Positions 37,106-54,086 of a DNA stretch of 64,000 nt are shown in pieces. The notes below the pieces were generated by a model. That model searched no databases. It was not told the DNA's origin and saw nothing but the letters and a program-made list of their open reading frames with translations. Made by a program: the position numbers and the translations under genes. How positions within the stretch are numbered: position 1 is the first letter of the stretch; every line of letters begins with the position of its first letter. Source of the stretch: Fibrobacter sp. GTDB lineage: Bacteria > Fibrobacterota > Fibrobacteria > Fibrobacterales > Fibrobacteraceae. Where the stretch lies: the NCBI GenBank assembly GCA_024398875.1, contig JAKSIJ010000001.1:248001-312000 (forward strand), written 5' to 3'.

Positions 37106-38946
37106 TTTTTGCGGTCCTCCAATCCAAAGTAAGCCATCAATACCTTACGGGCAATGGGGCCAGAAACTGCGCCACCACCGCCTGCAGCTTCCATAATCAC
37201 AGCCACTGCAATTTCAGGATTATCAATGGGAGCCACTACAGCATACCAAGCATGCGTCTTCTCGCCCTTCTTCCATTCGCCAGAACCCGTTTTGGCGCCC
37301 ACTCGAATTCCCGGAATTGCGCCTCGCTTACCGGTTCCACCAGGATGATTCGCCACAGAATCCATGGCGGCCATCAAGATGCGGTGCGTTTCAGGCTTCA
37401 TCTTTCCTTGTCGAATGATTTCAGGCTCAAAAGTCTTAACCACATTTCCTTCAGAATCCCGCAGTTCCTTCATAAAGTGCGGGCGATAAACACCTTTATT
37501 GGTGGCAAGAGAACCCACCAAAACCGCCTGCTGCAAAGGCGTCACTATCTGGCCCTGACCGATGGAAAGATTCAAAATCAAGCCGCGGGCCCAACGCCAG
37601 CCCAAGCGTTTATTTCTTTCATTAAACGAAGCCGAATCCGGAAGCCATCCTGCGCGTTCACCAGGAATATCAATTCCCAACGTTTTTTCGCCAAGACCAA
37701 AGCGGCGGCCAAACTCATTAATGCGCTCCATATCAATATCAAGGCCAGCCTGATAGAAAAACACATCGCAAGACAATCGAATTGCATTCACCACATTTAG
37801 GTTTCCATGGCTTCCCCAACACTTCTGATATCTCGCACCATACTGAAAGCCTCCCGTGCAAGGCTTAGGGTAAAACTTGCTTTCAGAAAGAACTCCATTT
37901 TCGAGACCTGCGCCTGCGGTCACTAGCTTGAAAACAGAAGCCGGAGGATAAGTTCCCGAAATGGCACGATTCGTCAATGGCCGCAAAGAATCCAGAGCCA
38001 CTTGAGCCCAGCCTCTATTGCGTTCCCGTTTCTTCAGAGAGAAAATATTCGGGTCCAACCGTGGAGAACTCACCATGGCAAGGATCTCTCCATTGCGCGG
38101 ATCAATCGCTACAAGTGCACCGCGTGCCGTATCGGGAATAGCAGCCTCCGCTACCTTCTGGAGTTTCAAATCAATGGTAGAGACCAAATGCAAGCCAGGA
38201 ACAGGAGCCTTGCTGTCCACGCCCTTCACCAAAGCAATTTCACGACCGGAAGCATTGACTTCCACAATCTTGAGCCCGTTGGTGCCGCGGAATTCTGCAT
38301 CATAATGCTGCTCCAAACCCTTCTGCCCAATGCGATCCCCTTGGCTGTAATTCGCATACTCCGGCAATTTCAGCTGCTCTTCCGAAATTTCACTGGTATA
38401 GCCAAGCACATGTGAAGCAAGCGTTCCGTATGGATAAGCGCGTCTAGACTCAATCAAGGTCACAACGCCCGGCAATTCCGAGGAATGTTCTTCCACTATG
38501 GAAACCTGCTCTGGCGATGCATCTTCCAAAATGCGGATTGGGCGATTCTTTATCCAACGAGAACGCAAGAACGCCGTGTCTAACGACAAAGAATCAAACA
38601 TCCGCTTTCCATCTTTATCCCGAATCTGCAGCAAGTTCGCAAATACAGAATCCCTTCCCGATTTTTTCTTTGGAAGGTTCAGAGACTGGATGGCAATCTG
38701 ATACGAGGGTCTATTGCGCACCAGGATTTCTCCATTGCGGTCATAGATGAATCCACGTTCCGCTACTAACTCCACACGACGCAAACGGTTGTTTTCCGAA
38801 CGCTGAAGGTTCTCGTCGTAATGAGTGTATTGCAAAGAAAACAAGCGCAACAAAAGGACTGTAAAGCAAAGGAGAACGGCCGCCATGAAAATCAGCACGT
38901 TCCAATTGCGAATTTGAACGCCTTCGTTGGAATTGCTCTTATACAT
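37102..38946 (-). CDS. mrdA: Penicillin-binding protein 2
   Basis: Class B PBP, the transpeptidase partner of RodA in the elongasome. The 614-residue protein has one N-terminal membrane helix (about 17-39), the dimerisation/pedestal domain, and the penicillin-binding domain with Ser337-x-x-Lys340 (PPASVFK), SCD (about 387) and KTGSGEW near residue 555. It overlaps mreD upstream by eight bases and rodA downstream by four, so the set is tightly coupled. Confidence 0.97.
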   Translation of the reverse strand: MYKSNSNEGVQIRNWNVLIFMAAVLLCFTVLLLRLFSLQYTHYDENLQRSENNRLRRVELVAERGFIYDRNGEILVRNRPSYQIAIQSLNLPKKKSGRDSVFANLLQIRDKDGKRMFDSLSLDTAFLRSRWIKNRPIRILEDASPEQVSIVEEHSSELPGVVTLIESRRAYPYGTLASHVLGYTSEISEEQLKLPEYANYSQGDRIGQKGLEQHYDAEFRGTNGLKIVEVNASGREIALVKGVDSKAPVPGLHLVSTIDLKLQKVAEAAIPDTARGALVAIDPRNGEILAMVSSPRLDPNIFSLKKRERNRGWAQVALDSLRPLTNRAISGTYPPASVFKLVTAGAGLENGVLSESKFYPKPCTGGFQYGARYQKCWGSHGNLNVVNAIRLSCDVFFYQAGLDIDMERINEFGRRFGLGEKTLGIDIPGERAGWLPDSASFNERNKRLGWRWARGLILNLSIGQGQIVTPLQQAVLVGSLATNKGVYRPHFMKELRDSEGNVVKTFEPEIIRQGKMKPETHRILMAAMDSVANHPGGTGKRGAIPGIRVGAKTGSGEWKKGEKTHAWYAVVAPIDNPEIAVAVIMEAAGGGGAVSGPIARKVLMAYFGLEDRKK

Positions 38947-39430
38947 GCTTCTTTTTCTTGGCCATAGACAGGTGGAACACTAAAGCACCTACAACCACCG
39001 TATAAATGCATTCAGGAATTGTCTTCGAGAAGAACAAATTCGTCACCACTTCTTTTTCAAGACCTGTCATAAAGAAGTAAATCATGTCGCAAATGAAAAA
39101 GCCTAATCCCAGCACACCCACTTTTGCAGGTTGATTCAATGTCAGGAATTTTTCTTCCAACTGCCCCACAATGAATCCTAAGATAGTCATGGAAACGGTA
39201 TGCGCTCCCAACCATTCCACAGGAGCATAGACGTCCTGTGTAAAGCCAGCGCAAAAGCCCCAGAAGCAGCCTGCAGCCGGGCCAAATTTAATGGCGATGG
39301 ACACAATCATAATGATGATAAAATCGGGACCAGCGCCAAATATTTGGAGCCATGACCCTACCGTCGTCTGCAAAATGAAGCAGCCAATGAAAACCAAAAG
39401 AACCTTAATCCATTTCCAGTTTTTATTCAT
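38939..39430 (-). CDS. mreD: Rod-shape protein MreD
   Basis: A 163-residue inner-membrane protein with five hydrophobic segments and the pattern of MreD (GPDFIIIMIVSIAIKFGPAAGCFWGFCAGFTQDVYAP, given here as the region around residues 33-70). MreD helps link MreC, PBP2 and RodA. It overlaps mreC by eight bases and mrdA by eight. Identity rests on the order of genes as much as on sequence. Confidence 0.9.
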   Translation of the reverse strand: MNKNWKWIKVLLVFIGCFILQTTVGSWLQIFGAGPDFIIIMIVSIAIKFGPAAGCFWGFCAGFTQDVYAPVEWLGAHTVSMTILGFIVGQLEEKFLTLNQPAKVGVLGLGFFICDMIYFFMTGLEKEVVTNLFFSKTIPECIYTVVVGALVFHLSMAKKKKHV

Positions 39431-40250
39431 CGAGAAGCTCCTGAATAATCCACTCGGGTTCTTTTTCCATCACAAAAACTTCTTCCAGTTTTGAAAACAC
39501 CTGGAACGGAGCCACATCCATCATGCGCATCACTTCCAAATCCGCAGAGCGAATTTCTTTTACGGTTCCCACAGGAATTCCCTTAGGGAAGATTCCTCCC
39601 AATCCAGAAGTAATCAGCGTATCTCCCACCTGAACGCCTGCATGAGTCGGAATCTGCGCCGAAAGCAAATGCCCATCTACGGATTCCAAAAATCCAACCA
39701 CACGAGTTCTCCGCTCCAGCACAGACAGCTTAAGATTCGGGTCCACCAAAAGTTGCACGCGGGAATGGGTCAGTGCAGCCTTCGTCACCTTCCCTACCAA
39801 ACCATCCATAGAAAACACGGGCATGTTTTCTTTTACACCATGACTCGTGCCACGGTTGATAATGATGGTCGTGAGGAATCTTCCTGGATTATGGCCCACT
39901 ACGCGAGCCGTCACAATCGGGTAATCCCACTTATCATCAAAGCGCACTAAAGTGTGAAGCCGCGCCAGTTCCTGCAGGCCCTCGCTTGCATAGTAGGTTT
40001 CCTGCCGGAGTTTAGCATTCTCCTCTTTCAATTGCTCATTTTCGGACACCACCGAACGGTAGGCATTCAAAGATGAAATCACCATCTGCGCCGGGTAGAA
40101 CACCGTTCCCAGCGCAGCAGACACAATGCTCTCGCGGGTCACCGTAGGTGCCCGATGCATCATCAGTCCAAGCAAGAGAAAGAAGACAAAGGCAACAATG
40201 CCATGTCTCTTGGAAAATAGATTCAGAATGAAGCGGATAGCTCTAAGCAT
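39423..40250 (-). CDS. mreC: Rod-shape protein MreC
   Basis: A 275-residue periplasmic elongasome protein with one N-terminal helix (about 15-32), a coiled coil (about 60-95: SENEQLKEENAKLRQE) and the two beta domains with VGHNPGRFLTTIIINRG and GLVGKVTKA. It activates the PBP2-RodA pair. It lies 21 bases after mreB. Confidence 0.95.
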   Translation of the reverse strand: MLRAIRFILNLFSKRHGIVAFVFFLLLGLMMHRAPTVTRESIVSAALGTVFYPAQMVISSLNAYRSVVSENEQLKEENAKLRQETYYASEGLQELARLHTLVRFDDKWDYPIVTARVVGHNPGRFLTTIIINRGTSHGVKENMPVFSMDGLVGKVTKAALTHSRVQLLVDPNLKLSVLERRTRVVGFLESVDGHLLSAQIPTHAGVQVGDTLITSGLGGIFPKGIPVGTVKEIRSADLEVMRMMDVAPFQVFSKLEEVFVMEKEPEWIIQELLDE

Positions 40251-40271
40251 CGAACCGCATTTCTGGAAAGG

Positions 40272-41294
40272 TTAGTTAGAAGATGCCACCAGCACCGGGC
40301 GATACTTATCCAAGTCTTCCAGAATACGAGCCGCACCCTTACAAACGCAAACCAAAGCCTCGTCAATCACATTGACAGAAAGTCCCGTTTCCTTGCGGAT
40401 GCGTTCATCAAAGCCGCGAAGTTGAGAACCACCACCAGTCATGATGATGCCCTTGTCATAGATATCCGCAGAAAGTTCCGCCGGAGTCATGCTCAAAGCC
40501 TGCTTCACCGCTTCAATGATGGCCGTCACCGGCTCATTCAAGGCTTCACGGATTTCCGTACTAGAAATAGTCATGGTGCGCGGCATACCTGCCATAAAGT
40601 CGTGACCCTTCACTTCCATGGAGAGTTCTTCTTCCAAGGGGCTTGCGGAACCAATCTGAATCTTGATTTGTTCTGCAGTGCTTTCGCCAACGCAAAGGTT
40701 GTACATGGTGCGGAGATAGCGGACAATTGCTTCGTCCATTTCATCACCACCCACACGCACAGACGCATTGCAAACGGTACCATTCAATGCAATCACAGCG
40801 ATATCGGAGGTTCCACCACCGATATCCACAATCATGTTACCCACAGGATCTTCTACAGGGATACCCATACCCACGGCGGCGGCCATGGGCTCGTGAACCA
40901 AGTGCACTTCCTTGGCCCCCGCCTGCTTTGCAGCATCAATCACAGCACGCTTTTCCACTTCGGTAATGCCACTGGGGACGCCAACCACCACGCGGGGTTT
41001 CACCATCCACAGCGGGTACTTCTGCACGCGCTTAATGAAGGTCTGGAGGAGCGTTTCCACCAATTCAAAATCGGCAATCACGCCATCGCGCATGGGGCGC
41101 ACCGCACGAGTCTCACCAGGAGTTCTTCCCAGCATCTTCTTTGCTTCAAAGCCAATAGCAGAAACCCTATTGTTCTTGCTATCCACCGCAATCACGGTAG
41201 GTTCGTTAATAACAATTCCCTGACCGGCCACATGCACCAGAGTGTTGGCTGTACCCAAGTCAATACCAATATCGCAAGAAAATAGTCCGAACAA
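40272..41294 (-). CDS. mreB: Rod-shape actin homologue MreB, TTG start
   Basis: MreB forms membrane-bound filaments that guide lateral wall synthesis. The 340-residue frame has the actin-fold phosphate loops DIGIDLGTANTLV and IVDIGGGTSDIAV, and the adenosine motif GGGSQLRGFDERI. The start codon is TTG at 41294 with an AGGA ribosome site seven bases upstream; there is no better ATG in frame. It heads the mreB-mreC-mreD-mrdA-rodA operon and has a clear promoter at 41317-41345. Confidence 0.97.
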   Translation of the reverse strand: MFGLFSCDIGIDLGTANTLVHVAGQGIVINEPTVIAVDSKNNRVSAIGFEAKKMLGRTPGETRAVRPMRDGVIADFELVETLLQTFIKRVQKYPLWMVKPRVVVGVPSGITEVEKRAVIDAAKQAGAKEVHLVHEPMAAAVGMGIPVEDPVGNMIVDIGGGTSDIAVIALNGTVCNASVRVGGDEMDEAIVRYLRTMYNLCVGESTAEQIKIQIGSASPLEEELSMEVKGHDFMAGMPRTMTISSTEIREALNEPVTAIIEAVKQALSMTPAELSADIYDKGIIMTGGGSQLRGFDERIRKETGLSVNVIDEALVCVCKGAARILEDLDKYRPVLVASSN

Positions 41295-41361: not shown

Positions 41362-41724
41362 CTACGGCAGGGAATCCCTACCAAAATGAAGCTTCTTTAA
41401 ATACCTATCCCAATGGCGCCCCTGCACCTCGTAGCGGTACTTCCGCTGCTCATACATGGCAATGTCCTTGTATATGTAGAAGTAGACCTCTGCGTATGCC
41501 GCATAGATTTCCGCCTCGGCTCCGGAGAAAAGCCGAAAATCCTTAATGCGGTAATAGGGCTCATCCAAAAGAGCCGATCTATCTCCAGAAGCATGAATGG
41601 TTTCCGCCACCATGAACTTTAAATCTTCCTGAAGGTAGGGCAAAAGTTTTGCCTCGATGCGATCCGTCCGCTCAGAACATCCCAACATCAAAAGGCATGC
41701 AAGTGCTAGCAAAATTCGTTTCAT
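41362..41724 (-). CDS. Small lipoprotein, unknown
   Basis: A 120-residue lipoprotein (lipobox MLGC, Cys16). The mature part is mixed and rich in Tyr and Arg (AEVYFYIYKDIAMYEQRKYRY). No family is recognised. The ATG lies six bases after TATTTT in the T tail of the upstream terminator, and there is no ribosome site, so it may be leaderless. It is followed by mreB with its own promoter. Confidence 0.65.
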   Translation of the reverse strand: MKRILLALACLLMLGCSERTDRIEAKLLPYLQEDLKFMVAETIHASGDRSALLDEPYYRIKDFRLFSGAEAEIYAAYAEVYFYIYKDIAMYEQRKYRYEVQGRHWDRYLKKLHFGRDSLP

Positions 41725-41728
41725 ACTT

Positions 41729-41767
41729 GAAAAATAAAAAAGAAATGCCCTCCAAGAGGAGAGCATT
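41729..41767 (-). terminator. Terminator after the 41.8-43.1 kb outer-membrane gene
   Basis: A 10-bp stem (41758-41767 with 41744-41753, one G-U pair, 4-base loop) followed on the minus strand by TCTTTTTTATTTTT. The T tail merges with the -10-like box of the next gene. Confidence 0.88.
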
Positions 41768-41790: not shown

Positions 41791-43086
41791 CTAGAAGGAA
41801 TAGGTTGCAGAGATTCTGGAGAACATTCTGCCTTCACCCTGGAACGGATTGCGGAACAGAAGGTCTTCTGCAACAGTCACATCAATCTTCAACTTTTCTT
41901 CGATATTGATGCCGAAGCCAAAGCCCACGTGGTCATCGGCAGTGCCATCAGCCAACGGGTTGGTGCTGAAGAAGGTACCGTCTTCCAAGCACATTCCAGT
42001 CTTGCCGCCATTGCGAACATTCTTCTCACATTCCGTATAGAGAATAGACTTCTGACCGCCAACGCGAATCACGAACCAATCCCACCAGATATTGCGTTCG
42101 ATACCAAAACTAATCATGCCTCCGATATCATCACGTTTGTCCCAGCGATGATCTTCCGATTCCTGAGAATCATAAAGTGTTTCGCCAGTTTCATAATCAA
42201 AGGTCCAACCGCTCATCTTTAATTTGTTCCAAATGAAGTCGGCGCCCAACCAGAAGAAACCGCGATCAAGGGCAACATTGATGCCAAGACCTGCCTGAGC
42301 ATGCTTGTCTTCAACACCAGGAGCCTTGATGAACTTTGCAGAGAATGCCGGCACCAATTCACCATCAAGGGCTTCTAGCGTAAAGAACGCACGAGAACTG
42401 CCCAAGAAAGAGAAATCGCCGTCATCAAAGAAGTTCAGGTGCTCTGGACCATACTGAATTCGGGCAATGCCGAAAGCAATCTCAAAATCGATGTTGCTAC
42501 CAAACTGGAGGTTAAAACCACCATCGGCCTGCACTGCAGAAGCAAAGGCACCACTAGAGACCTGATACTCTCCGCTGGCCGTCTTATCTCCGCCATCCTG
42601 ATGAGCGATATAGATGTGCAAGCCCCAAGCATCACCATTAGAAAGCGTGCCACCCAAGAAGCCGTCAAAGTTGGTCACCGTTTCGGGAACAACCGTAGTA
42701 TCGGCAACATTGTCATCAACAACGCGAGTAGGCATATACTTCAAAAGGTTGTTATTGATGCGTCCAAAGAGACCACCGATGCTCAAGCGAGGATCCGGAT
42801 TATTTTCATCTCCCAGAGAAACAGAGAAGATGCCACCAAAGTTGGGATACATGGGGTCCTTGTTTCCACCAGCCTGCAAATTGTTATCCGTATAGGGGCC
42901 AAACTCACCAATCAAATAGTTTGGATACAAGTTGATGTTGGCCGGATTATCAAAGATGCTCACATCATCCATGATGTAGGTCGTATTTTTGCCCATAGAT
43001 TCCACACGAGCAAAAGTTGCAAAGGCAGACCCGACACCGAGGATGCCGAAAGCCACACCGACAGCAGCAGCTGATCTTAAGTTCAT
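41791..43086 (-). CDS. Predicted outer-membrane beta-barrel protein
   Basis: A 431-residue exported protein (signal peptide about 1-23, GSAFA). The early segment VSIFDNPANINLYPNYLIGEFG is of the PorV/FadL-like start found in outer-membrane barrels of this phylum. Many amphipathic strands follow (FFTLEALDG, GGMISFGIERNIWWDWFVIRVGGQK), and it ends in a C-terminal Phe (RISATYSF), the signal for barrel insertion. It is transcribed alone, from a strong promoter between two terminators. It is probably an abundant outer-membrane protein. Confidence 0.78.
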   Translation of the reverse strand: MNLRSAAAVGVAFGILGVGSAFATFARVESMGKNTTYIMDDVSIFDNPANINLYPNYLIGEFGPYTDNNLQAGGNKDPMYPNFGGIFSVSLGDENNPDPRLSIGGLFGRINNNLLKYMPTRVVDDNVADTTVVPETVTNFDGFLGGTLSNGDAWGLHIYIAHQDGGDKTASGEYQVSSGAFASAVQADGGFNLQFGSNIDFEIAFGIARIQYGPEHLNFFDDGDFSFLGSSRAFFTLEALDGELVPAFSAKFIKAPGVEDKHAQAGLGINVALDRGFFWLGADFIWNKLKMSGWTFDYETGETLYDSQESEDHRWDKRDDIGGMISFGIERNIWWDWFVIRVGGQKSILYTECEKNVRNGGKTGMCLEDGTFFSTNPLADGTADDHVGFGFGINIEEKLKIDVTVAEDLLFRNPFQGEGRMFSRISATYSF

Positions 43087-43236: not shown

Positions 43237-44169
43237 TTATTCAGAGAAGGTGAACGGAATCGTCACTGTGGTGTTACCGGACTTCACCTTGCTGAACTTC
43301 CAGCGGCTAACAGCGGTCTTGATTTCGCCATCAAATTCGCCGTAACCCGTGGTAGAAGAGGCAATGGAGATGCTGATAACTTCACCACCCGGAGCAATCG
43401 TGAACTTCAAGGTAACCTTACCCTGGAATCCCGGTTTCTTCTTCAGGTGCTTGTTATAGATGTGACGGAGACCCGGAGTACGCTGACGAACAACCTTCAT
43501 GATGTCTGCAGCGGAACGGGAACCACCACCGGCGCCCATATCGATATCGCGTTCAGACGGAGTCTTGATAGAGCCCTTAGCCTTAGTAGCGATACCACCG
43601 CCACCACCGCCAAGGAGGCCTGCCAAGCCGTCACCGATACCACCGGAACCGCCTTCAGCGTAACCTTCGTTGAATGCACCATCAGCCTTACCGCGACGAC
43701 CACCGAGAACAGTCTTACCCGTTGTCTGGAGGCCAGCCACGTCCTTCAACACCTTATCGATGTCTTTGGTGAACTTCTGGTTCTTCATCAAATCGTATGC
43801 ACCGGCACTAGCGTTCTTAGTCTGAGCAGTAAGGAGCTTCAACACACCACGAGTCTGCGGTGCCTTGGGGTTACCCTTACCACGCGGCTTACCACCACCA
43901 CCAGCTTTCTTACGAGGCTTCTTCGGCTCTTCTTTCTTCTTCTCCTCCTTCTTCTCTTCCTTCTTTTCTTCCACAACCATGGAAGCAGAAAGATCAGCAG
44001 CAGCAGATTCTTCGAAGATAACTTCATCAACCACGGCTTCATACATAGAAGCCCAGAGGCTGAGAGCCATAGCAATCACGAAAGAAATACCGACGATAGC
44101 GCCCATCTTCTTGTCGGATTCCGGCATGAGGGCCGCTACTAACGGATCTACAGGAGCTTTTTTCGCCAT
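43237..44169 (-). CDS. AgmX/PglI-type TonB-like protein
   Basis: A 310-residue protein with one N-terminal membrane helix (about 22-42), a Glu/Lys-rich stretch (about 68-95: EEKKEEKKEEKKK), a Gly-rich part with GGGGKPRGKG and GLLGGGGGG, and a C-terminal TonB-like domain of the AgmX/PglI type (VTLKFTIAPGGEVISISI, FDGEIKTAVSRWKF). TonB-like proteins carry force from an ExbB-ExbD motor across the periplasm. It ends the operon, one to two bases after exbD. The name comes from the gliding proteins of Myxococcus; it could also serve transport. Confidence 0.85.
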   Translation of the reverse strand: MAKKAPVDPLVAALMPESDKKMGAIVGISFVIAMALSLWASMYEAVVDEVIFEESAAADLSASMVVEEKKEEKKEEKKKEEPKKPRKKAGGGGKPRGKGNPKAPQTRGVLKLLTAQTKNASAGAYDLMKNQKFTKDIDKVLKDVAGLQTTGKTVLGGRRGKADGAFNEGYAEGGSGGIGDGLAGLLGGGGGGIATKAKGSIKTPSERDIDMGAGGGSRSAADIMKVVRQRTPGLRHIYNKHLKKKPGFQGKVTLKFTIAPGGEVISISIASSTTGYGEFDGEIKTAVSRWKFSKVKSGNTTVTIPFTFSE

Positions 44170-44170
44170 A

Positions 44171-44665
44171 TTATTCCTCCCCGCCGTTCTTTTCCATCAC
44201 CGCAAAAGCGATGTTGGTGTATCCGGCATAGCCACAAGTGGCCATTACCTTATACATAGCGTCGTATGGTATGTTCTTGTCAATCTGGACAATGATATGG
44301 CCAGCTTCATCGGCAGGGAGTCCCATCTTAAGGGCGTGTTCCTGTTCAATGGCACGGCGATCCTTCAGCACTTCGTTCACCTTTTCGACAAGGAGATCTT
44401 CCTGTGCAAGGACGTCGTCGGTAGCAACCACTTTTTCATTATCCACAATGATGTAGGCCTTATCGACCACGACTGTCAAAGACACTTCCGTCGGCTGGAT
44501 TTTAGAAGTCGAAATCGGAAGAATCAAGTTTTCAGCCTGAGTCAACAACTGACCTTCAGCGTCCAAGTTCTTGATCATGAACACCAGAATGATGGTCATC
44601 ATGTCCATCATGGAGGTCAAGGAGAACGGGACGTCTTCAGAATATTTACGAGTTCTTCTAGCCAT
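44171..44665 (-). CDS. ExbD/TolR-family protein
   Basis: A 164-residue ExbD/TolR-type protein. The single membrane helix contains the conserved acidic residue: SLTSMMDMMTIILVFMI with Asp21, which carries protons in ExbB-ExbD motors. The periplasmic domain follows (LILPIST, IIVQIDKNIPYDAMYKVMATCGYAGYTNIAFAVME, the last given as residues ~125-160). It sits between a divergent ExbD-like gene and the AgmX-like gene at distances of only one to two bases. Confidence 0.9.
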   Translation of the reverse strand: MARRTRKYSEDVPFSLTSMMDMMTIILVFMIKNLDAEGQLLTQAENLILPISTSKIQPTEVSLTVVVDKAYIIVDNEKVVATDDVLAQEDLLVEKVNEVLKDRRAIEQEHALKMGLPADEAGHIIVQIDKNIPYDAMYKVMATCGYAGYTNIAFAVMEKNGGEE

Positions 44666-44667
44666 GA

Positions 44668-45564
44668 TTAACCTCCCAACTTAGCAAGGTTGATCTTGGT
44701 GAACCCTGCATCCTTAGCACGGTCCATCATCTGAATAATCTTGTCAAATTGAGTATCATCATTTGCGACAATGATGATGTTGTCAACGTCTTCAAGGTCG
44801 ATAAACTGCGTATGGATAGCAATCAAGTCTTTTGCAATCAGATCGTAGGCAGAAAGCGGATAGATGATGTTCTTGTTAGCCACATCCGGTTTCAGAGTAC
44901 GAGCAGAGTTCGGGGTAAGAGTAGCAAGGGCTACACCCGGACCTGGCTTCTTGAGGGAAGGAGGAGGAGTGAGACCGTATGCGCCTTCACCAGGAAGTGC
45001 AATAAAGTTGTTGTTGCCATCTACGTAGGCACTATCAGCAATAGGCTCTTCAGCGCTACCACCGTTGGAATACAAGGCCCAAATGACCTTACCCGGGTCT
45101 TCTTCGGATTCCTTGTTGATTGCCCAAAGTTCGATAGATTCGATTTCATAGAGATACTTCTCTTTATCCATCTCACTACCATCCTTACACTTTGGTCCGT
45201 GTCCACTTTCAACAGCCTTTTTCACATCATCCGGAGAATGAGTGATGAGCTTAGCATCGGACTTGCAACGGAACGTCCACATTTCTTTGAAGTAAACGTT
45301 GGGTTGGAAACCACCGCGTGCACCAATCACGAGATAATCGCTGGTCACTGCGAGGGACAAGTTCAAAGCCTGTTCATCCGGTTCCGGAGGAGTTTCGTTA
45401 TCCATCTGCATCATGCTGCGTTCAGGCAGGTTGACTTCGACGATAGCGAGCTTTGAGAATGCGGTCATGGACAAAAGCATAGGAATCAAAATCGTAAACA
45501 AACCCATGGCCGGGAGTAGATCCGGTTCATCAGGCTTTGCTGGTTTTTTGACTTCTTTTGCCAT
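44668..45564 (-). CDS. Second, divergent ExbD/TolR-like protein
   Basis: A 298-residue protein with one N-terminal membrane helix (MGLFTILIPMLLSMTAF, about 20-36) followed by a large periplasmic part. The end (NIIIVANDDTQFDKIIQMMDRAKDAGFTKINLAKLGG; about 260-298) is a typical ExbD/TolR C-terminus. The membrane helix has no Asp or Glu, unlike every proton-carrying ExbD, and the periplasmic part has an insert of about 130 residues with Cys residues. It probably pairs with the normal ExbD as a regulatory or structural subunit. Confidence 0.8.
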   Translation of the reverse strand: MAKEVKKPAKPDEPDLLPAMGLFTILIPMLLSMTAFSKLAIVEVNLPERSMMQMDNETPPEPDEQALNLSLAVTSDYLVIGARGGFQPNVYFKEMWTFRCKSDAKLITHSPDDVKKAVESGHGPKCKDGSEMDKEKYLYEIESIELWAINKESEEDPGKVIWALYSNGGSAEEPIADSAYVDGNNNFIALPGEGAYGLTPPPSLKKPGPGVALATLTPNSARTLKPDVANKNIIYPLSAYDLIAKDLIAIHTQFIDLEDVDNIIIVANDDTQFDKIIQMMDRAKDAGFTKINLAKLGG

Positions 45565-45588: not shown

Positions 45589-46218
45589 TTAGTCGTTAGC
45601 GAGAGTGTTAATAACCTTGAGGCCCTTTTCTTCCATTTCCTGAATCAAACGTTCAGAGTTCATGTTGAGGATACCAACGAGAACCAGAAGAGGCACAGCG
45701 GAGAGAAGTCCAAGAAGCGTAGTACCCATAGCGATAGCAATACCATCGGAAAGGGCCTTAGCACGTTCAGAAGCGGGTTTGTTAGCCACAGCATCGAATG
45801 TGAAGATCAGACCATAAATCGTACCCATCAGTCCGAGCAAGGTAGAGATAGAGGCCATCACAGAAATCATGCTAATGTAACGAGTCAGACGAGGAGCTTC
45901 AGTGAGGAACACGGCGTCGCATTCGTTCTGCATAGCTTCGCGACCACCAGCCTTAGAACCAACAATAGCAGCCATCACCTTAGCAATGGGGAGCTTGGTG
46001 TTGGAGGAAGCCAGAGAAAGAGCCTGGTCATACTGCTTGGCGCTGATGAGCTTACCGAAGTCAGCGAGGAACTTGGCGCGACCCTTGGAGCTCTTCACCA
46101 TGATGTAAACAATACGTTCGATGGTGAAGCCGAGACCGATAACGAACACGGCCAAGATGATCCACATGAACTGATAACCATCAGATTCTGGGCTGAAAGA
46201 TTCAAGCATTTTAGACAT
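45589..46218 (-). CDS. ExbB/TolQ-family motor protein
   Basis: A 209-residue MotA/TolQ/ExbB family protein with three membrane helices (about 15-37, 115-140, 160-185). The large cytoplasmic loop lies between the first two. The third pair shows the family signature LGLMGTIYGLIFTF and GIAIAMGTTLLGLLSAVPLL. It forms the proton channel with the ExbD-type proteins downstream. A terminator-like hairpin precedes it and it has an AAAGGAG ribosome site. Confidence 0.92.
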   Translation of the reverse strand: MSKMLESFSPESDGYQFMWIILAVFVIGLGFTIERIVYIMVKSSKGRAKFLADFGKLISAKQYDQALSLASSNTKLPIAKVMAAIVGSKAGGREAMQNECDAVFLTEAPRLTRYISMISVMASISTLLGLMGTIYGLIFTFDAVANKPASERAKALSDGIAIAMGTTLLGLLSAVPLLVLVGILNMNSERLIQEMEEKGLKVINTLAND

Positions 46219-46416: not shown

Positions 46417-49400
46417 CTACTGAGCAGCTCCAGCGGCAGCACCTTCACCAGCAGCACCTTCGGCAGCTGGCTCCGGAGCCGGAGCGAGTTGCTTCTTCAA
46501 TTCAGCGAGTTCAGCCTTCAACTTTTCGTTTTCAGCCTTTGCTTCCTTGATAATGTCGCGGTAGGTGTTGATCTGTTCTTCCGGAGTCATGACTTCAGAC
46601 TTGGCAATCTGTTCGATACGAGCCTTCGTCTTGAAGTATGCAGGGTCAGCAAACAGAGTAGACGGGTCAAACTTTTCGATCTTGGTGTTCAAGGTCTCAT
46701 TGTTTTCATCCAAAGTCTTCAGCAACTCATAGAGTTTAGCAGTCCACTGGTTCTCGATACCGTAATGAGCGGCAGCCTTGATACCGGTTGCGCACTGCGG
46801 AATGGCGAGCTGCTTTGCTCCATCAGAACGTCCCTGAAGTTCTTCACGATAGGCTTCCAAATCTTCGTGGGCCATATCGACAGCGTCTTCTACGACTACG
46901 CCTTCGTATTCCACGTATTCAGTCACAATGGCGGCACTATCCGGCAGCGGAGAGTTAGCGAAGGCATCAGCCACTTCAACAAACACAGCGCATCCCTGGT
47001 AATACATTTCAATGTAACCTTCTTCAGCCTCGATCACATCTTGGTTGTAGAAGCCCTGGTCACGAGCAAGGTCAATGTTTTTCTGGAAGATAGGACGAGC
47101 CTGTTCGTAGTAGCTGGGCAACTGTTGTACAATGCCGATACGTTCTGCGAATCTTTCATCATCCTTCTTGCTGTTCAGTTCCTGTTCACGAATCTTGGCA
47201 GCCATGGTCACAAAGAGCATACCCATCTTGTTGGTGGCACGGAAGGTCCACTTTTCAGATGCATAGGTAGCAGACTTGGAGTAATGGCCCATAGCCTTCT
47301 GCAGGATTTCCACCAACTTCTTAACAGTAGCGGCCTTTTCCTTATCCTTACCCTGAATAGTGATGGGCTCCATCTTATTGTATTCATGTTCACCGAGGTA
47401 GAAGGCGGCTTCAGCAGGAACACCCGGATCGGCATTCTTAATCTGCAGACCGTACTTATCGTAGTTCTTCAAAGTCTGGTCATAATCAGCAACAGCTTTA
47501 TCCTCTTCCTTCAATTCCATATAGGCACGAGCAGCACCAATATAGGCAGCAATGAGCTTTTCCTTATCTTCGGAGTAGTTCTTGATGAAGAAGTGATATT
47601 CTTCAGCAGCAAGGTCCCACTTCTTAGCGTTGGCATAAGCTATAGGAATGCTATAAGCGGCATCCACAGCATACGTGCTCTTGGGATAGTCATGGACCAA
47701 GTCCTTAGAGCAGCGGATAGCTTCATCCGGCATCTGGGCTTCATCGTAGCTCAAGCATGCGCTATAGAGATAGCTCGGAGTTCTTTCGTCATCATGATAA
47801 CGCTTGTAAGCAATTTCAAAGGTAAGAGCGGCGTTCTTCTTATCCGGGATGGAATCATAGGTCTGGGCAGCAAAACCGATTGCCTGGAAGGCCATAGAAT
47901 CCTTCGGGAAGTTGTCCGTAATAAAGAGGAATGTCTGAGCAGCCTGTTGCGGCTTGTTATCCTTCTTGTAGTTGGAGGCTGCACGCAGGATACCTCTAAT
48001 GGTGAGAGGAGAGCTTGCATACTGGCGAGGCAACATCATGAAGGTTTCAGAAGCCTGACTATACATCTTTGCATTTTCGTAAGCCACAGCGGCTTCGAAC
48101 ACAGCCTTATCTGCAAAGGAGACCAACGGATAACGCTTCACAAGTTCCAAGTAAGCCTTGGCACCTTGTTCAAACTGGCCAGCCTTTACAGAAGATTCAG
48201 CCTTCTGGAAGAGCACGGCAGCGATAGCCTTTTCAATTTCCTTGGCCATGGAGTCATTCTTCGTGGCCTTCACATCGTGATACTGCTTATACAGCCATTC
48301 GAATTCCACAAGGGCCTCATCCAACTGGTTGGATTCCAGCAAGGACTGGGCAAGCATACGAACAATAAGGAGGATGTACTGGTGATCCGGGTACTTCTGG
48401 CGAAGATCGCGGAGCACGGTTACAGCCGTATTGTACTGCTTTGCTTCGTAATGGATGATTGCGGCATTGTAGGCAAGTTCTGCAGCTTCCTTGTTGTTGC
48501 CGAACTTAGCCATATACTTGTCAACCTGAGCAAAATAAGCCTTGGTTTCTTCACCCTTATAAGCCTTTACAGGATCATCGCCATACTTGTTCTTCTTTGC
48601 GGCTTCACGAGCCTGGTCCATCATGAGCACGGCGTTATAACCAGCTTCTTCCTTGAGAAGGAGCTTTTCGGAGCCCATGGGGCGGCGACCATACTTCGCG
48701 GTGTCAGAGTCCACAATCCAGTTGAACATCTTGGCGGCATTTGCATACTGAGCCATTTCCTGATAAACAAGGGCCAAATTGATATGGACCTTATACTCAT
48801 CCCAAGAAGGTTCCTTAGCATAACGCTTCAAGAAGGCTTCGTAGGCAGTGATTGCCTTTGCATATTGCTTCTTACCGGCTTCCAAGTCACCTTCCTTAGT
48901 GAGCTTAGCAGCACGAGCGTGGTGATACTGCGGAATATCAAGCATAGCACCACGGATAGCGAGTTCAGCATTCTTCACAGACTCAGGATACTTCTGGTTC
49001 TTCTTGTACCAAGAAGAATTGCGGTCATAGCGCTTCACCACTACATAGCGATGCTCCTGAGCATCATCAAACTTCTGCTGGATGATAAGGATTTCAATCA
49101 TGGCAATATCGGCAAGCGGAGCATCGATATAGTCAGGGTTGATTTCCATCAAGCGTTTGAAGGACTGGACCGCTTCTTCGTTACGGTCATGGTCCTTATT
49201 CTTCATACCGATACGGTAGTAAACGGAATCCTTGAAGGGCACCTTCTTGTCTTTCAAGAAAGCTTCAGCTTCCTGGACACCACCACCTTCCAAGTCAGAG
49301 AAGGAGGCCGCCATGAAGTCCATAGCTTCTGCGCGCAAGTCAGCAGGATATTTGCCTTTATCAGCACCAATGATATAGTCATAGTACTTGACTGCTGCGG

Positions 49401-50199
49401 TTTCATATTCGGCAATGTTATAGTAAGATTCTGCCAAGTGGTACATGGCAAGTGCGGCTTCCTTACCGGTAAGGGTTTCAAAGCCCGTCACCTTCTTATA
49501 AGCTTCCACGGCATCGCGGAACTTACGATTCATAAAGTGGTATTCAGCTATACGGAGCCAAGCCTTGGGCACAAGACCATTATCCGGGAAATTGCGAACC
49601 AAACGCTCACGAAGACGGAAGGCCTTTTCATCTTCGCCACTAGCTTCTTGCACAGCAGCAGCCTGATAAAGCACCATCGGAGTTTTGGCTTCCTTAGGAT
49701 ACTTATCAATGTATTCCAGGAAGTAACCGAGAGACTTCTGGTGATCGGCCTTCGGGAATTGGTCGATATTAGCACACTTAGCCGGCTTGTTATCGCGGTC
49801 TGCGCACCATGCTACATCTTCTTCATACTGGGCCTGTTTATCCAGGAAGTATTTCTCTTCCAACTGGAACTGGTAGTGACCCAACTGCTGAAGAGCACTT
49901 GCGCAGCGAGAGTTCTGCTTACCCTTACAGTTGTTAACCTGTTTTTCCCACTGGCGGATAGCATCTTGCATGCCCTTCTCGTCAAGGCCACCGGAACGGC
50001 AAGCCTGTGCAGCGGAGTTCTTGGCCACCTTATAGGAGTTAGCGCACTCCTTATACTTGGCAGAGCCCTTCTCCATCGCCTTACATTTTGCGAGGAGCTT
50101 CTTAGCGTCTTCTGTTTTATCCTTACAAGGATCGGATGCAGCGAAGGTCGTCCCCACAAGGGAGCAAATCATCGCGGCTACGAGCAAAAGCTTTTTCAT
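46417..50199 (-). CDS. Large secreted TPR-repeat protein
   Basis: A 1260-residue exported protein. Signal peptide about 1-21 (GTTFAA). A Cys-containing helical region (about 23-140) leads into many tetratricopeptide-like repeats from about 145 to 1100 (AWLRIAEYHFMNRKFRDAVEAYKKV; PDYIDAPLADIAMIE; NAAIIHYEAKQYNTAVTVL and others). A coiled coil near residue 1200 (EAKAENEKLKAELAELKKQL) precedes an Ala/Pro/Glu/Gly tail. The layout resembles the AglT-type TPR proteins of gliding clusters. It lies between a barrel-TPR gene and the exbB genes and is probably the periplasmic scaffold. Its codon use avoids TTA, CTA and TCA, which leaves the other strand open, a sign of strong expression. Confidence 0.88.
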   Translation of the reverse strand: MKKLLLVAAMICSLVGTTFAASDPCKDKTEDAKKLLAKCKAMEKGSAKYKECANSYKVAKNSAAQACRSGGLDEKGMQDAIRQWEKQVNNCKGKQNSRCASALQQLGHYQFQLEEKYFLDKQAQYEEDVAWCADRDNKPAKCANIDQFPKADHQKSLGYFLEYIDKYPKEAKTPMVLYQAAAVQEASGEDEKAFRLRERLVRNFPDNGLVPKAWLRIAEYHFMNRKFRDAVEAYKKVTGFETLTGKEAALAMYHLAESYYNIAEYETAAVKYYDYIIGADKGKYPADLRAEAMDFMAASFSDLEGGGVQEAEAFLKDKKVPFKDSVYYRIGMKNKDHDRNEEAVQSFKRLMEINPDYIDAPLADIAMIEILIIQQKFDDAQEHRYVVVKRYDRNSSWYKKNQKYPESVKNAELAIRGAMLDIPQYHHARAAKLTKEGDLEAGKKQYAKAITAYEAFLKRYAKEPSWDEYKVHINLALVYQEMAQYANAAKMFNWIVDSDTAKYGRRPMGSEKLLLKEEAGYNAVLMMDQAREAAKKNKYGDDPVKAYKGEETKAYFAQVDKYMAKFGNNKEAAELAYNAAIIHYEAKQYNTAVTVLRDLRQKYPDHQYILLIVRMLAQSLLESNQLDEALVEFEWLYKQYHDVKATKNDSMAKEIEKAIAAVLFQKAESSVKAGQFEQGAKAYLELVKRYPLVSFADKAVFEAAVAYENAKMYSQASETFMMLPRQYASSPLTIRGILRAASNYKKDNKPQQAAQTFLFITDNFPKDSMAFQAIGFAAQTYDSIPDKKNAALTFEIAYKRYHDDERTPSYLYSACLSYDEAQMPDEAIRCSKDLVHDYPKSTYAVDAAYSIPIAYANAKKWDLAAEEYHFFIKNYSEDKEKLIAAYIGAARAYMELKEEDKAVADYDQTLKNYDKYGLQIKNADPGVPAEAAFYLGEHEYNKMEPITIQGKDKEKAATVKKLVEILQKAMGHYSKSATYASEKWTFRATNKMGMLFVTMAAKIREQELNSKKDDERFAERIGIVQQLPSYYEQARPIFQKNIDLARDQGFYNQDVIEAEEGYIEMYYQGCAVFVEVADAFANSPLPDSAAIVTEYVEYEGVVVEDAVDMAHEDLEAYREELQGRSDGAKQLAIPQCATGIKAAAHYGIENQWTAKLYELLKTLDENNETLNTKIEKFDPSTLFADPAYFKTKARIEQIAKSEVMTPEEQINTYRDIIKEAKAENEKLKAELAELKKQLAPAPEPAAEGAAGEGAAAGAAQ

Positions 50200-50245: not shown

Positions 50246-52471
50246 TTATTCCAGGTCTTCCAATTCCTCAAGTTCCTGAGCAGCTTCAGAGCTTCCGCCG
50301 CCCTGGCTCATCTTGGTCTTCACAGTAGCCAAGGTAAAGCCGGCGTCATCCAAAATGCGCTTGCGGTTAGATTCGAAGCGATCGCTCTGAATGGACTTCT
50401 GCGTAAAGGCAGCATAGTCTTCCATGGACTTGTTAGCCTTATCAAAGGAAGGCTGCAAAGCTTCACGCTTGCTTTCCACACGAGGTGTGGGGAGCTGGCG
50501 AGAAAGATCCAAAGCCTTCACCTGCACAGAGTCAAATTCACTCTGCATAGCTTCGTAGGCCTGGCGAGCACTATCACGAGAAGCAACAGAGACAACCGGC
50601 TGTTCCGTACGCTTTTCGGCTTGTTCCAAAGCCTTCACAGAATTGTTGTAATCCTTCTTGATGAAGTAGCTATAACCAATCACCAAGTATGCTTCGGAAA
50701 CCAGGAAGGATTCCGGCATATTGGAAATAATCCACTGAGCAGGCTTCATGGCTTCATCAGGCTTGTTCACCTTCAAGAAGGACCATGCAATACCCAGCAT
50801 AGCTTCATCGTACACAGGAGACCCGGCTTCCACCTGACCATACATCTGGGCAGCAGCGGCGATATCCGGCTTTTCTCCAGAGAAGTAGATATGACCAAGT
50901 TTCACCTTAGCAGCATCCTGCAAGTCGCGTTCAGACTGGTTGGAAACAGGCTGTTCCGTAATATCACGGAAGCAGTTTTCAGCTTCTTCCCACTTGCCCA
51001 TACGGCTGTAGGCGATACCCATAGTATAGCGGGCATAGAAGTAGTTGGCGTTACCCGGAAGAATTGCGGCCAAGAGGTCCACAGATTCCTGATAGAGGCC
51101 TTGTTCAAACTTGATCTGGCCAGCGATATAGTCAGCATCTGCCTTCACGTCGCTTTCACCAAACTTCTGAGCAATGTTCTGGTACTTGGCCATAGCCTCT
51201 GTATACTTGCCTTCCTTATAGTCGATGTTCATCAACTGGAAGTGATACTTGGCGCGCTGGTCACTCTGAGGATAACGCTTGATGGCGTCTTCGTACACAG
51301 AGGTAGCAGCCTTGTGCATGCGGAGGTTTTCAAAGGACTTTGCCTTATAGAAAGCAGCCTGGTCCACCAAGTGGAATGCCGGGTACTTTGTCTGCACCTT
51401 ACCGAAAGCGTAAGCAGCCTTGAGGAACTCACGGTTCAAGTAGAGACGCATAGCAGCGCGGTAGTCATTTTCAGGCTCAATCTTCAAGCGACGATAACGT
51501 TCTTCACCGATTTTCTCTTCACGAGTGTCACCGAAGCGGGTAGTGAGTTTCACAGCCCAGATAAAGCCACGGTTCTTCTTAGCGTAGAGGTCGTCGTGAG
51601 ACATTTCCAAATCCACAGCCAAGTAACGGAAGAAACTGATGTCCTTCACGTTCACAGTTGCGCCAATCACAGGATAGCCTTCCTTGGTGAAGCGGGCACG
51701 AACGCCAAGGTGGGAAGAGAGATAGTAAGTCAAGGTGAAGCTCATTTCGAGATTCATGCCTTCACCACCTTCCTCGTCATCATGCATCACATCGATGATG
51801 GAGAATTCAGCCTTACCTTCCAAGGAACGGTTGAGACCGCGATAGAACAAAGAGATGTTCAAGTTGGAAGGAATCTTATAGGCTTCGTCTTCCGTCAAGA
51901 GAACGAATGTGGGAGCATCCTTTTCAGCAGTGCTGATTGCCGGCTGGAGAGCATTCTGCAATGCCACACCGACTAACAAGTAGCCATACTTAGAGGAGGC
52001 AAGCGGATTCCAGCTCACACCCACATCGGCACCCATAGTCAGATGAGTCACTTCATCGAACTGGTTGATATAGAGGAGGGAAACATCCACACCGAGAGAA
52101 AGGAACTGCATTAAGTTGTATGCATAACCGAAGAGGAATGCATATTCACCATAAGACTTACCGCCATCAATGGAAGCACCGTTTTCGAAAGCGGAGAATC
52201 CCAACGTGTGCTTGTAGTCCATGGGGAAAGTCAAGCTAATGTATTCCTGGCTGGCCTCGCCGCTGATGGAGCTGAAGAAGGCAGCGCTAAATTCCAACTG
52301 TTCCGTTTCAGAAATACCAGCGGGGTTCACATACATGGAAGTGTTACCACCAAATTCTGCAAACCAGTCGTTCTGCTGATACTTATGCGGAGTGTATGTT
52401 GCTTCTGCAAACAAGGAGCTTGCAGCAACGGAAAGTCCAAGGATTGATGTCTTGATGAAACTTGTACGCAT
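50246..52471 (-). CDS. PorV-like barrel fused to TPR repeats
   Basis: A 741-residue exported protein (signal peptide about 1-24). Residues ~25-330 look like a PorV/UPF0164-type outer-membrane barrel: GNTSMYVNPAGIS start, FPMDYKHTLGFSAFENG, LGVRARFTKEGYPVIGATV, and WAVKLTTRFG at the end. From about 345 to 640 there are TPR repeats (FYKAKSFENLRMHKAATSVYEDAIKRYPQS and others). The tail is helical and ends in Glu (AAQELEELEDLE). The start is the second ATG at 52471, nine bases after AAGGAG. It lies between the OmpA-type gene (8 bases) and the large TPR gene, in one operon. Confidence 0.85.
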   Translation of the reverse strand: MRTSFIKTSILGLSVAASSLFAEATYTPHKYQQNDWFAEFGGNTSMYVNPAGISETEQLEFSAAFFSSISGEASQEYISLTFPMDYKHTLGFSAFENGASIDGGKSYGEYAFLFGYAYNLMQFLSLGVDVSLLYINQFDEVTHLTMGADVGVSWNPLASSKYGYLLVGVALQNALQPAISTAEKDAPTFVLLTEDEAYKIPSNLNISLFYRGLNRSLEGKAEFSIIDVMHDDEEGGEGMNLEMSFTLTYYLSSHLGVRARFTKEGYPVIGATVNVKDISFFRYLAVDLEMSHDDLYAKKNRGFIWAVKLTTRFGDTREEKIGEERYRRLKIEPENDYRAAMRLYLNREFLKAAYAFGKVQTKYPAFHLVDQAAFYKAKSFENLRMHKAATSVYEDAIKRYPQSDQRAKYHFQLMNIDYKEGKYTEAMAKYQNIAQKFGESDVKADADYIAGQIKFEQGLYQESVDLLAAILPGNANYFYARYTMGIAYSRMGKWEEAENCFRDITEQPVSNQSERDLQDAAKVKLGHIYFSGEKPDIAAAAQMYGQVEAGSPVYDEAMLGIAWSFLKVNKPDEAMKPAQWIISNMPESFLVSEAYLVIGYSYFIKKDYNNSVKALEQAEKRTEQPVVSVASRDSARQAYEAMQSEFDSVQVKALDLSRQLPTPRVESKREALQPSFDKANKSMEDYAAFTQKSIQSDRFESNRKRILDDAGFTLATVKTKMSQGGGSSEAAQELEELEDLE

Positions 52472-52484
52472 CGTCATCTACTCC

Positions 52485-54002
52485 TTACTTGATATCCGTG
52501 CGATGGAATTCGATACGACGATTCTGCGCACGCCCTTCTGGGGTCTTGTTGGAGGCGACCGGCTGGGTATCACCCTTACCACTCGTCACTATACGGCTTT
52601 CAGCGATGCCTTTTTCCACAAGGAAGTTCTTCACGGATTCTGCACGGTCTGCAGACAACTTCATGTTCTTTTCCTTGCCACCCTGATTATCGGTATGACC
52701 GATGATTTCAAAAGTGGATTCTGTAAAGGCTTCAAGAATATCGACAACCTTCATGAGGGAGATGTAGGAATCCGGAGTAATCGTAGCCTTACCCGATTCG
52801 AAGTTCACACCTTCCAACACAAACACTTTCTTAGGCGGCTGCGGGATTTCATCCGGGCAACCATCTTCATCCTTATATCCGTTCTCAGTTTCCGGCTGTT
52901 CCGGGCAAAGGTCCACGGCCTTACAAACGTGGGCAAACGTAGCGAACATAGCCTTAGCCTCGACCCAAGGATCGCAAATACCATCGCGGTCATTGTCAGC
53001 ATCCGGGCAGCCATCGTCGTCCTGATAACCATCAAAGTCTTCAGCTTCTTCGGGGCAGTTATCAATACCCGTGCAAACAGAAGCATACTTCTCGGAAGCG
53101 CCTTCTTCGGAAACCCACGGATCGCAAAGACCATCAGCATCAGTATCGGGGTTACGGGTTTCTTCAACGGCTTCTTCTTCCTTTGCAACTTCAACATCGG
53201 TAAGGCCGATATCCAGTTTACCCTTACCGCGCTTCAGCATCGGGGAGGAGGACTGGCAGTAGAAGTTCGGCTTGGAAAGAGAAGCGTTCATGAACTTCGG
53301 GTCCAAGGAAACGTTGGTGCGGTTCACCTTGATGAACTGGTTGAAGGGGTAGTAGTTCTTGTAGATGTTGTTGTACTCCACCTTGGTCTGACCGGCAGCA
53401 GGATCAGCAAACACACCGTAGTAGTGGTTTTCCATGAAGATGTTGTTGCGGGCAATGACGTTGGTAGGGCCCTTCAAGGCAAGGCCAGAATAGCCATTGC
53501 GAAGGACAACGTTCTGTTCAATGGAGGCATCCAGAGATTTGGCGCCCCAAGCGAGGATGCCGGACCAGCGGTTGCCGTACACCACGTTATTGCGGAGGTG
53601 AGGGAGCGAAATGAAAGCTCCGATACCGGTAGCCTTATTGTCCATCACATAGCAGTGGTGAATGTAGGGAGCAGCGTTTTCACAGAGGATGCCTTCAATA
53701 CCGTTCCTCACTGTGAAGTGTGACATCTCGGCACCAGAGGTACCCATGACGGTAGGACCACGGCGACCACCATCAATGATGGTTGTCAGAGGGTCTTCAC
53801 CCTTTAGGACCACGCCCATGATGAGCGAGATGTTTTCGTTATAAGTTCCGCGTTTGACGAAGATGGTATCCCCGGCATCTGCATTACCGAGAGCATCCGC
53901 GATCTTAGAGTAATCGCCAGGCACGTTGATATTTCTTGCCATGGCGGTTCCAGAAAGAAGCATCGCCCCGGCCGTAATTAGGACCAGTTTCTTTAGGGTC
54001 AT
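52485..54002 (-). CDS. OmpA-family protein with right-handed beta-helix head
   Basis: A 505-residue exported protein (signal peptide about 1-22). Residues ~25-270 are a right-handed parallel beta-helix (NosD/pectate-lyase-like): IFVKRGTYNENI, HHCYVMDNKATGIGAF, NNVVYGNRWSGIL, NVVLRNGYSGLAL, ARNNIFMENHYYGVFAD. Then come three thrombospondin type 3 repeats with DTDADGLCDPW, DFDGYQDDDGCPDADND and DEDGCPDE (Ca2+ binding). An OmpA C-terminal domain follows (FEIIGHTDNQGG, LSADRAESVKNFL), which binds peptidoglycan. The ATG at 54002 fits the signal peptide and has GGAG upstream. It starts the cluster, with a textbook promoter at 54087-54115. Confidence 0.9.
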   Translation of the reverse strand: MTLKKLVLITAGAMLLSGTAMARNINVPGDYSKIADALGNADAGDTIFVKRGTYNENISLIMGVVLKGEDPLTTIIDGGRRGPTVMGTSGAEMSHFTVRNGIEGILCENAAPYIHHCYVMDNKATGIGAFISLPHLRNNVVYGNRWSGILAWGAKSLDASIEQNVVLRNGYSGLALKGPTNVIARNNIFMENHYYGVFADPAAGQTKVEYNNIYKNYYPFNQFIKVNRTNVSLDPKFMNASLSKPNFYCQSSSPMLKRGKGKLDIGLTDVEVAKEEEAVEETRNPDTDADGLCDPWVSEEGASEKYASVCTGIDNCPEEAEDFDGYQDDDGCPDADNDRDGICDPWVEAKAMFATFAHVCKAVDLCPEQPETENGYKDEDGCPDEIPQPPKKVFVLEGVNFESGKATITPDSYISLMKVVDILEAFTESTFEIIGHTDNQGGKEKNMKLSADRAESVKNFLVEKGIAESRIVTSGKGDTQPVASNKTPEGRAQNRRIEFHRTDIK

Positions 54003-54086
54003 ACTGCTACGTTTCTCCAATCATAGAACACATAAATTTTTTCATCTTTATAATTTGCCGAACCGACAACTATAAATCCGTGTGGG

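Follow-up and report, generated by a model that had tools for sequence, protein, structure and literature searches.

In the TonB-ExbB-ExbD and TolQRA systems of E. coli a single ExbD/TolR gene serves each motor, so that the two partners in the axle are identical and both bear the proton-carrying Asp. The window analysed here, a stretch of 64,000 nucleotides from a Fibrobacter sp. contig, holds a gene for an ExbD-like protein (ExbD1) in which this Asp is missing, next to a gene for an ExbD (ExbD2) in which it is present. The locus raises the question of whether ExbD1 is a damaged or misaligned ExbD or a lasting part of a motor built from one active and one inactive type of subunit, as the initial annotation had suggested.

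ExbD1 and its membrane helix

The ExbD1 open reading frame begins with an ATG and is unbroken (Table 1). The limits of its membrane helix were taken from DSSP on an AlphaFold2 model of the protein. The helix reads LPAMGLFTILIPMLLSMTAFS and contains neither Asp nor Glu, in agreement with the initial annotation; D12, E13 and D15 lie just ahead of it. As a test of register, a profile of 17 family members was aligned to the solved ExbD chains 7ajq and 6tyi. The alignment runs from the helix to the subsequent LP, and the Asp of ExbD ('..VTPFIDVML..') falls on the G/N column of the Asp-less family, which in the window is Gly21 (codon 45502-45504) and in the family profile is G, N, S, A or C. No other register fits, and one that would place an Asp in the helix was ruled out by this alignment together with the PxM.L....IP anchor.

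The Pfam model PF02472 matches the window protein at 29.8 bits (cut-off 25.4, E 7e-7) over C-terminal residues 252-294 only. Five relatives from within the phylum and beyond it (L038, L046, L168, L182 and L186) score 50-78 bits with the helix part included, and ExbD1 from a Vibrio plasmid scores 19.8 bits, below the cut-off. On alignment and profile evidence, ExbD1 of the window is an ExbD/TolR homologue that lacks the Asp of a working proton-carrying subunit.

Table 1. Motor genes, neighbouring genes of the cluster and parts of ExbD1, in window positions
Feature	Position	Strand	Description
134-aa protein	41362..41766	-	lipoprotein-like start (by eye); cluster end
Outer-membrane-like protein	41791..43086	-	431 aa; PopA model 41 bits, below cut-off
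TonB-like/AgmX-PglI domain protein	43237..44169	-	310 aa; presumed force-transmitting arm
ExbD2-type subunit	44171..44665	-	164 aa; Asp21 (codon 44603-44605)
ExbD1-type subunit	44668..45564	-	298 aa; without proton-carrying Asp; N-terminal helix and insert-bearing ExbD/TolR periplasmic fold
ExbD1, C-terminal ExbD domain part	44674..44850	-	residues 239-297 (limits inferred)
ExbD1, insert within ExbD periplasmic fold	44851..45267	-	about residues 100-238 (limits inferred); two Cys
ExbD1, predicted membrane helix	45454..45516	-	residues 17-37; Gly21 in place of ExbD/TolR Asp
ExbB/TolQ/MotA-type channel subunit	45589..46218	-	209 aa; Ile162
YbgF-like TPR protein	46417..50199	-	1260 aa; same cluster
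TPR protein	50246..52477	-	743 aa; PorV2-like N-terminus weak, 17.8 bits, far below cut-off
Beta-helix and OmpA-domain protein	52485..54020	-	511 aa; upstream, same strand

The periplasmic domain

The model, built on 29 alignment rows with a mean pLDDT of 77.6, has a single long helix near the N-terminus (17-37); prediction is poor over residues 37-60, and the periplasmic domain comes after these. VIA-align superposed it on TolR 5by4 with a Z of 13.1 (90 residues, 3.5 Å) and on ExbD 8vgc with a Z of 9.6 (74 residues, 2.2 Å), the aligned residues beginning at 54-66, ending at about 297 and skipping the insert. We read the modelled ExbD fold as assembled from residues of about 66-100 and 239-297, with the insert in between. 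Thus the ExbD domain that had been called intact does keep its fold, and the large periplasmic insert with Cys comes to about 140 residues with two Cys, a two-Cys type found in 58 of 101 Fibrobacterota relatives. Foldseek with the same model returned hits to MreB/Hsp70-like chains at E values of 1e-3 and above (TM about 0.2, VIA Z at most 8.8), which we take as a common structural arrangement. Fibrobacterota ExbD1 proteins are 233-322 aa long as against 152-218 aa in the other ExbD1 read, with L167 (284 aa) and the partial L196 as exceptions.

The gene cluster and its genome

The genes are transcribed in the order ExbB, ExbD1, ExbD2 and TonB-like, which makes the Asp-less protein the first ExbD of the operon and not the second, as it had been called. 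ExbD2 is an ordinary ExbD with the ExbD helix pattern and with the Asp21 already assigned to it. The TonB-like protein has an AgmX/PglI C-terminal domain (83 bits, above the cut-off of 40) and matches the GltG model with an E of 2e-17 at 63 bits, far below the equivalog cut-off of 650. ExbB retains the Thr of GTIYG and the Thr of GTT, which we take to be the proton-pathway residues of E. coli, and the proton path on the ExbB side therefore looks usable.

One ExbB column, that of Ile162 and presumably of E. coli Glu176, was compared among motors. Glu, which AglR-like ExbBs have here, occupies it in none of 55 motors with an Asp-less ExbD1, in four of six with an Asp-bearing ExbD1 and in both outgroup ExbBs. 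This association amounts to one independent pair on supported branches (four on all branches) and is not used as proof. The Tol-type ExbB of the same genome has Met in this column (by eye) and stands beside an Asp-bearing ExbD.

Three further ExbD proteins are encoded in the genome, each beside one or two ExbB-type genes, and all of them have the Asp, so a genome-wide loss of the ExbD Asp was rejected. The genome has a single TolB_N match, which lies on contig C5 within a Tol-like cluster of ExbB, Asp-bearing ExbD and TonB-like genes, and for this reason the operon of the window was rejected as the Tol-Pal system of the genome. Downstream of the motor cluster, which lies directly upstream of them on the same strand, are the genes at 37102-41294, presumably mreB, mreC, mreD and PBP2. 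Loci L031-L036 and L050, of class Fibrobacteria, likewise have an mreB-like gene after the cluster; none was found in other Fibrobacterota loci with room for it.

Conservation in Fibrobacterota

A protein search across 167 Fibrobacterota genomes gave a match in 151, though in some of these (e.g., G048, G079, G111, G116 and G120) the match is to paralogues or to a short piece only. Of 102 distinct ExbD1-family proteins, 101 were scored after the fragment L106, which has no helix, was left out; these are distinct sequences with many close relatives within one genus, and not 101 independent cases. None of the 101, all with a readable helix, has Asp or Glu at the Asp column, where the residue is Gly in 51, Asn in 29, Ser in 13, Ala in 4 and Cys in 4. 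Both subunits were looked for in the rest of the phylum, and 88 of the 101 are flanked by ExbB upstream and ExbD downstream. Of the remaining 13 several are at contig ends, and two (L080 and L082) lack an ExbB within 400 nt. Wherever an adjacent ExbD is present it bears the Asp (94/94; 92 by sequence pattern, 2 by eye). Distant genomes contributed 20 loci (L031-L050), and in every one of them the genes for the Asp-less ExbD, its Asp-bearing counterpart and the TonB-like protein are consecutive; ExbB is upstream in 19, the sequence of L041 starting too late. Many of these loci, though not all, also have recognisable TPR, outer-membrane and lipoprotein-like genes.

ExbD1 gave dN/dS values of 0.046, 0.049, 0.061 and 0.090 in four genus comparisons; a fifth, within the family, was saturated. 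The helix part takes a smaller share of the amino-acid changes than the whole protein, and its region has invariant M, L, L, F and P columns. That the gene is decaying, or is an artefact of annotation or sequencing, has a negligible probability: the 101 homologues share the Asp-less state, no inner stops occur among the matches listed and dN/dS is far below 1. Nothing in the window speaks for such an explanation, and among relatives there are one ExbD1 split into two frames (L149, genome G135) and a few cut at contig ends. Encoded together with one ExbB and kept under purifying selection through the phylum, the two genes are aptly described as one active and one presumably inactive subunit type, so that this part of the initial annotation holds for the gene set.

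Some ExbD1 helices carry a Glu further along, at +14 from the Asp column in 29 of the 101 (on the Chitinispirillia side of the phylum) and at +16 in four (L033-L036, of the window's class and another family). Both positions are at the periplasmic end of the helix, and no such Glu was found in the ExbD1 of the window's own family or in L031 and L032 of its order.

ExbD1 is also met away from the operon. Copies without adjacent ExbB or ExbD occur in Chitinispirillia, two with room for such neighbours (L062 and L095) and two at contig ends (L088 and L096), which suggests that ExbD1 may have other uses. The two with room are solitary Asp-less genes (L062:5041-5817 and L095:4528-5313), and the same genomes hold an operon-type locus as well (L043 and L076, respectively). 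A scan of genome contigs returned 33 loci, none titled other than Fibrobacterota-type, and five isolates with two ExbD1 loci each. Open reading frames of the Fibrobacter family also contain ExbD1 periplasmic parts without the helix; of eight that were read (L051-L054, L057, L058, L060 and L061), most have a secreted or lipoprotein-like start (by eye). In four the periplasmic part is fused to a TonB-like part (L051:3308-4708, L052:2518-4032, L053:2911-4884 and L060:2738-4135); three were checked for Pfam TonB_C, which is present in L051 and L052 and absent from L060. Fusion in one chain suggests contact of ExbD1 with the TonB-like protein.

Relationship to the AglRQS lineage

In a tree of 110 rows and 147 columns, made with a short search, one branch (SH-aLRT 95) sets off all 55 ExbD1 and another (SH-aLRT 90) all 51 ExbD2, with four canonical ExbDs apart. 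Judging from this topology, ExbD1 and ExbD2 are two old paralogues. An AglQ-like row falls within ExbD1 and an AglS-like row within ExbD2, the AglRQS-like references being L210 and L213. Locus L210, in genome G194, encodes an ExbB, a 162-aa ExbD and a 194-aa ExbD, the lengths tabulated for AglQ and AglS (162 and 194 aa; PMC3169522). The 162-aa protein scores 42 bits with the Fibrobacterota ExbD1 profile vs 10 with that of ExbD2 and has Asp29 in ..NLVPFIDLM..; the 194-aa protein scores 112 bits with the ExbD2 profile vs 17 with ExbD1, and both ExbD-type subunits of the locus have the Asp. Tree position and profile scores thus place ExbD1 of the window in the AglQ lineage, and by the same sequence evidence the Asp-less pair is a branch of the known AglRQS-like motors with one channel protein and two ExbDs.

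The site is a sensitive one in Myxococcus xanthus, where aglQ D28N abolished proton conductance and paralysed motility (PMC3858216). Most sampled motors of the ExbD1 lineage have a natural N, G or S there. The distribution of the Asp in ExbD1 needs four changes of state on the ExbB tree and three or four, by group, on the ExbD tree, with gain and loss indistinguishable.

Distribution in other phyla and on plasmids

Of the 391 genomes searched, 224 were outside Fibrobacterota. The first cross-phylum set has 38 loci chosen for their resemblance to the Asp-less family, a choice that biases it toward Asp-less proteins, and one locus from a Vibrio alginolyticus plasmid. In 32 of these 39, ExbB, ExbD1 and ExbD2 are consecutive on one strand, and a TonB-like gene was also recognised in 22 of the 32. 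The ExbD1 site is Asn in 31, Ser in 2 and Asp in 5 of the 38 that could be read, and the ExbD2 site is Asp in 34/34. Two of the five Asp-bearing ExbD1 (L183 and L184) have no adjoining partner.

For a fairer survey we used the profile of Fibrobacterota ExbD2 on the first 160 non-Fibrobacterota genomes (E at most 1e-6). Matches were obtained in 27 genomes (14 + 13), with 26 distinct places where an ExbD1 lies upstream within 300 nt; L232 was left out as the same place as L228, and L223, L227, L233, L241 and L246 were dropped as matching loci without an adjacent ExbD1. The adjacent ExbD1 lacks the Asp in 22 of the 26 (Asn 20, Gly 1, Ser 1, Asp 4), and all 26 ExbD2 have it. The 22 pairs with an Asp-less ExbD1 are spread over 21 genomes, each of a different family. 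The four Asp-bearing ExbD1 come from three genomes, including G194, which is 9.0 Mb in size and matches GltG above the equivalog cut-off. At L238:863-1385, an ExbD1 outside the phylum is spread over two overlapping open reading frames, perhaps by a frameshift or an assembly error.

Plasmid searches found two V. alginolyticus records only, and one further plasmid search was empty. The mobilizable V. alginolyticus plasmid pMBL287 (L107:7349-9868) encodes ExbB, ExbD1, an Asp-bearing ExbD and, in the TonB position, a proline-rich protein; its ExbD1 is an Asp-less protein of 149 aa with Ser at the site and is annotated as hypothetical. Viral contigs scanned with the ExbD1 and ExbD2 profiles gave no match. 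The Asp-less/Asp-bearing ExbD pair is widespread and has no restriction to Fibrobacter. The rarity implied in the initial annotation is not supported, given 21 other families and the V. alginolyticus plasmids. Among the open-access papers searched we found no report of such a pair.

A possible one-Asp motor and its alternatives

The reading we favour, with a probability of roughly 0.55, is a motor of 5:1:1 ExbB:ExbD1:ExbD2 composition whose axle has a single proton-carrying Asp; ExbD1 would be a passive partner in it and a platform for the TonB-like arm. The cluster would then encode a rotary motor driven by protons, which would belong to the ExbB/ExbD ('5:2') class and, within it, to the kind with one channel protein and two ExbDs known from AglRQS. 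We infer the heterodimer axle, the 5:1:1 stoichiometry, the stepping and the job of the arm. The two-chain axle would be an ExbD1:ExbD2 heterodimer in which only ExbD2 supplies an Asp, while the ExbD1 helix would still be packed inside the ExbB pentamer, and the periplasmic domain of ExbD1, enlarged by its insert, may hold or steer the TonB-like arm and perhaps peptidoglycan. With a single Asp per axle, each ExbB subunit would account for one proton, so that a turn would need about five protons, in 72-degree cycles, instead of ten in 36-degree steps. In most solved Ton/Tol motors the two ExbD/TolR Asp differ in state, with a pentamer Thr engaging one of them, and the proposed cycle has them alternate at 36 degrees per proton (PMC12905483). 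The AbTolQR structure, where both Asp are in the same state (PMC12905483), counts against this reading, and whether the ExbDs form hetero- or homodimers is stated to be open even for AglRQS (PMC9389320). Further points against it are the dead D28N mutant (PMC3858216), by which the ExbD1 Asp is not dispensable in AglRQS, the Glu at the helix end of some ExbD1, and the solitary ExbD1 copies of Chitinispirillia with their possible other uses.

It is possible, and in our view unlikely, that the motor is ExbB5 with an ExbD2 homodimer running an ordinary two-Asp cycle, and that ExbD1 is an accessory outside the pore, such as a holder of the TonB arm or of peptidoglycan. ExbD2 alone retains the Asp and the ExbD helix pattern, and the orphan ExbD1 copies and the helix-less ExbD1 periplasmic parts in other Fibrobacter proteins would suit such an accessory. 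A slowly changing helix with the ExbD pattern preserved as far as the LP is, however, hard to explain outside the pore, and the gene order gives one ExbD1 per ExbD2. Less probable still is a mixed population in which ExbD1:ExbD2 axles are live and ExbD1:ExbD1 axles dead, with ExbD1 as a brake or dosage control on the number of running motors; a pure inhibitor would not be expected at one kept operon position in 21 other families, although the site holds non-protonatable N or G, AglQ is inactivated by a change to N there (PMC3858216), and some genomes have further ExbD1 loci. That ExbD1 still carries protons through another group seems very improbable. One could imagine a water-filled gap at the Asn/Gly in that role, or the Glu that some members have at the helix end, and the Glu at +14 and +16 lend this some support, but the helix of the window has no acidic residue at all and the Glu, where present, are 14-16 residues from the site at the periplasmic end.

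Returning to the one-Asp heterodimer, such a motor, if true, would spend half the energy per turn and gain twice the rotation per proton. Being kept across the phylum and in many other bacteria, the pair looks like a built-in one-sided motor and not an accident. We suggest more tentatively, at somewhat less than even odds, that there is a widespread old class of 5:1:1 one-Asp rotary motors, with one live and one permanently dead axle helix, in which the freed helix and periplasmic domain would now serve as the arm that couples the motor to a TonB-like rod. Two identical Asp exchanging protonation at 36 degrees per proton are the basis of current 5:2 motor models (PMC12905483), and motors whose second ExbD is unable to protonate at the site are a natural experiment on stepping and on the heterodimer or homodimer question. 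If a one-Asp axle works, step and gear ratio would have to differ; if not, the work falls to ExbD2 homodimers and ExbD1 has some other role. Because the pair is kept through the phylum and in many other families, the answer would apply to a large, little-studied class of envelope machines.

Comparison with known systems

The window operon resembles E. coli TonB-ExbB-ExbD and TolQRA in its ExbB/TolQ family channel, its ExbD/TolR periplasmic fold and its TonB C-terminal domain. It differs from Tol-Pal in that no TolB is found beside the window ExbB/ExbD operon. In Fibrobacter succinogenes S85, FSU_2400-2403 are ExbB, ExbD, ExbD and TonB in order of gene number (PMC6851124) and, by gene order only, should be the operon of the window. 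All four proteins were more abundant in the envelope of cellulose-grown S85 cells, and the authors proposed a role in cellodextrin uptake; the available text of that report does not mention a missing Asp (PMC6851124). A Leptospira ExbB-ExbD-ExbD-TonB set likewise has two ExbD genes, one ExbB and a TonB (PMC7567364), a likeness of gene content alone.

Further parallels are with the gliding and sporulation motor AglRQS of Myxococcus xanthus, in which a channel gene of ExbB type is followed by two genes of ExbD type, first ExbD1 (AglQ) and then ExbD2 (AglS), and whose GltG/GltJ are matched in the window cluster by a TonB-like partner with an AgmX/PglI C-terminal domain. AglQ and AglS are both said to bear the Asp (PMC9389320), unlike the AglQ-type subunit of the window. 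One member of the Fibrobacteres had already been placed with the Agl/Glt core complex by Luciano et al. 2011 (PMC3169522), and MreB is needed by the Myxococcus Agl motors (PMC13104615). The relation to the Glt/Agl core (PMC3169522) and the mreB-like neighbour would fit a machine for surface movement or for organising the envelope.
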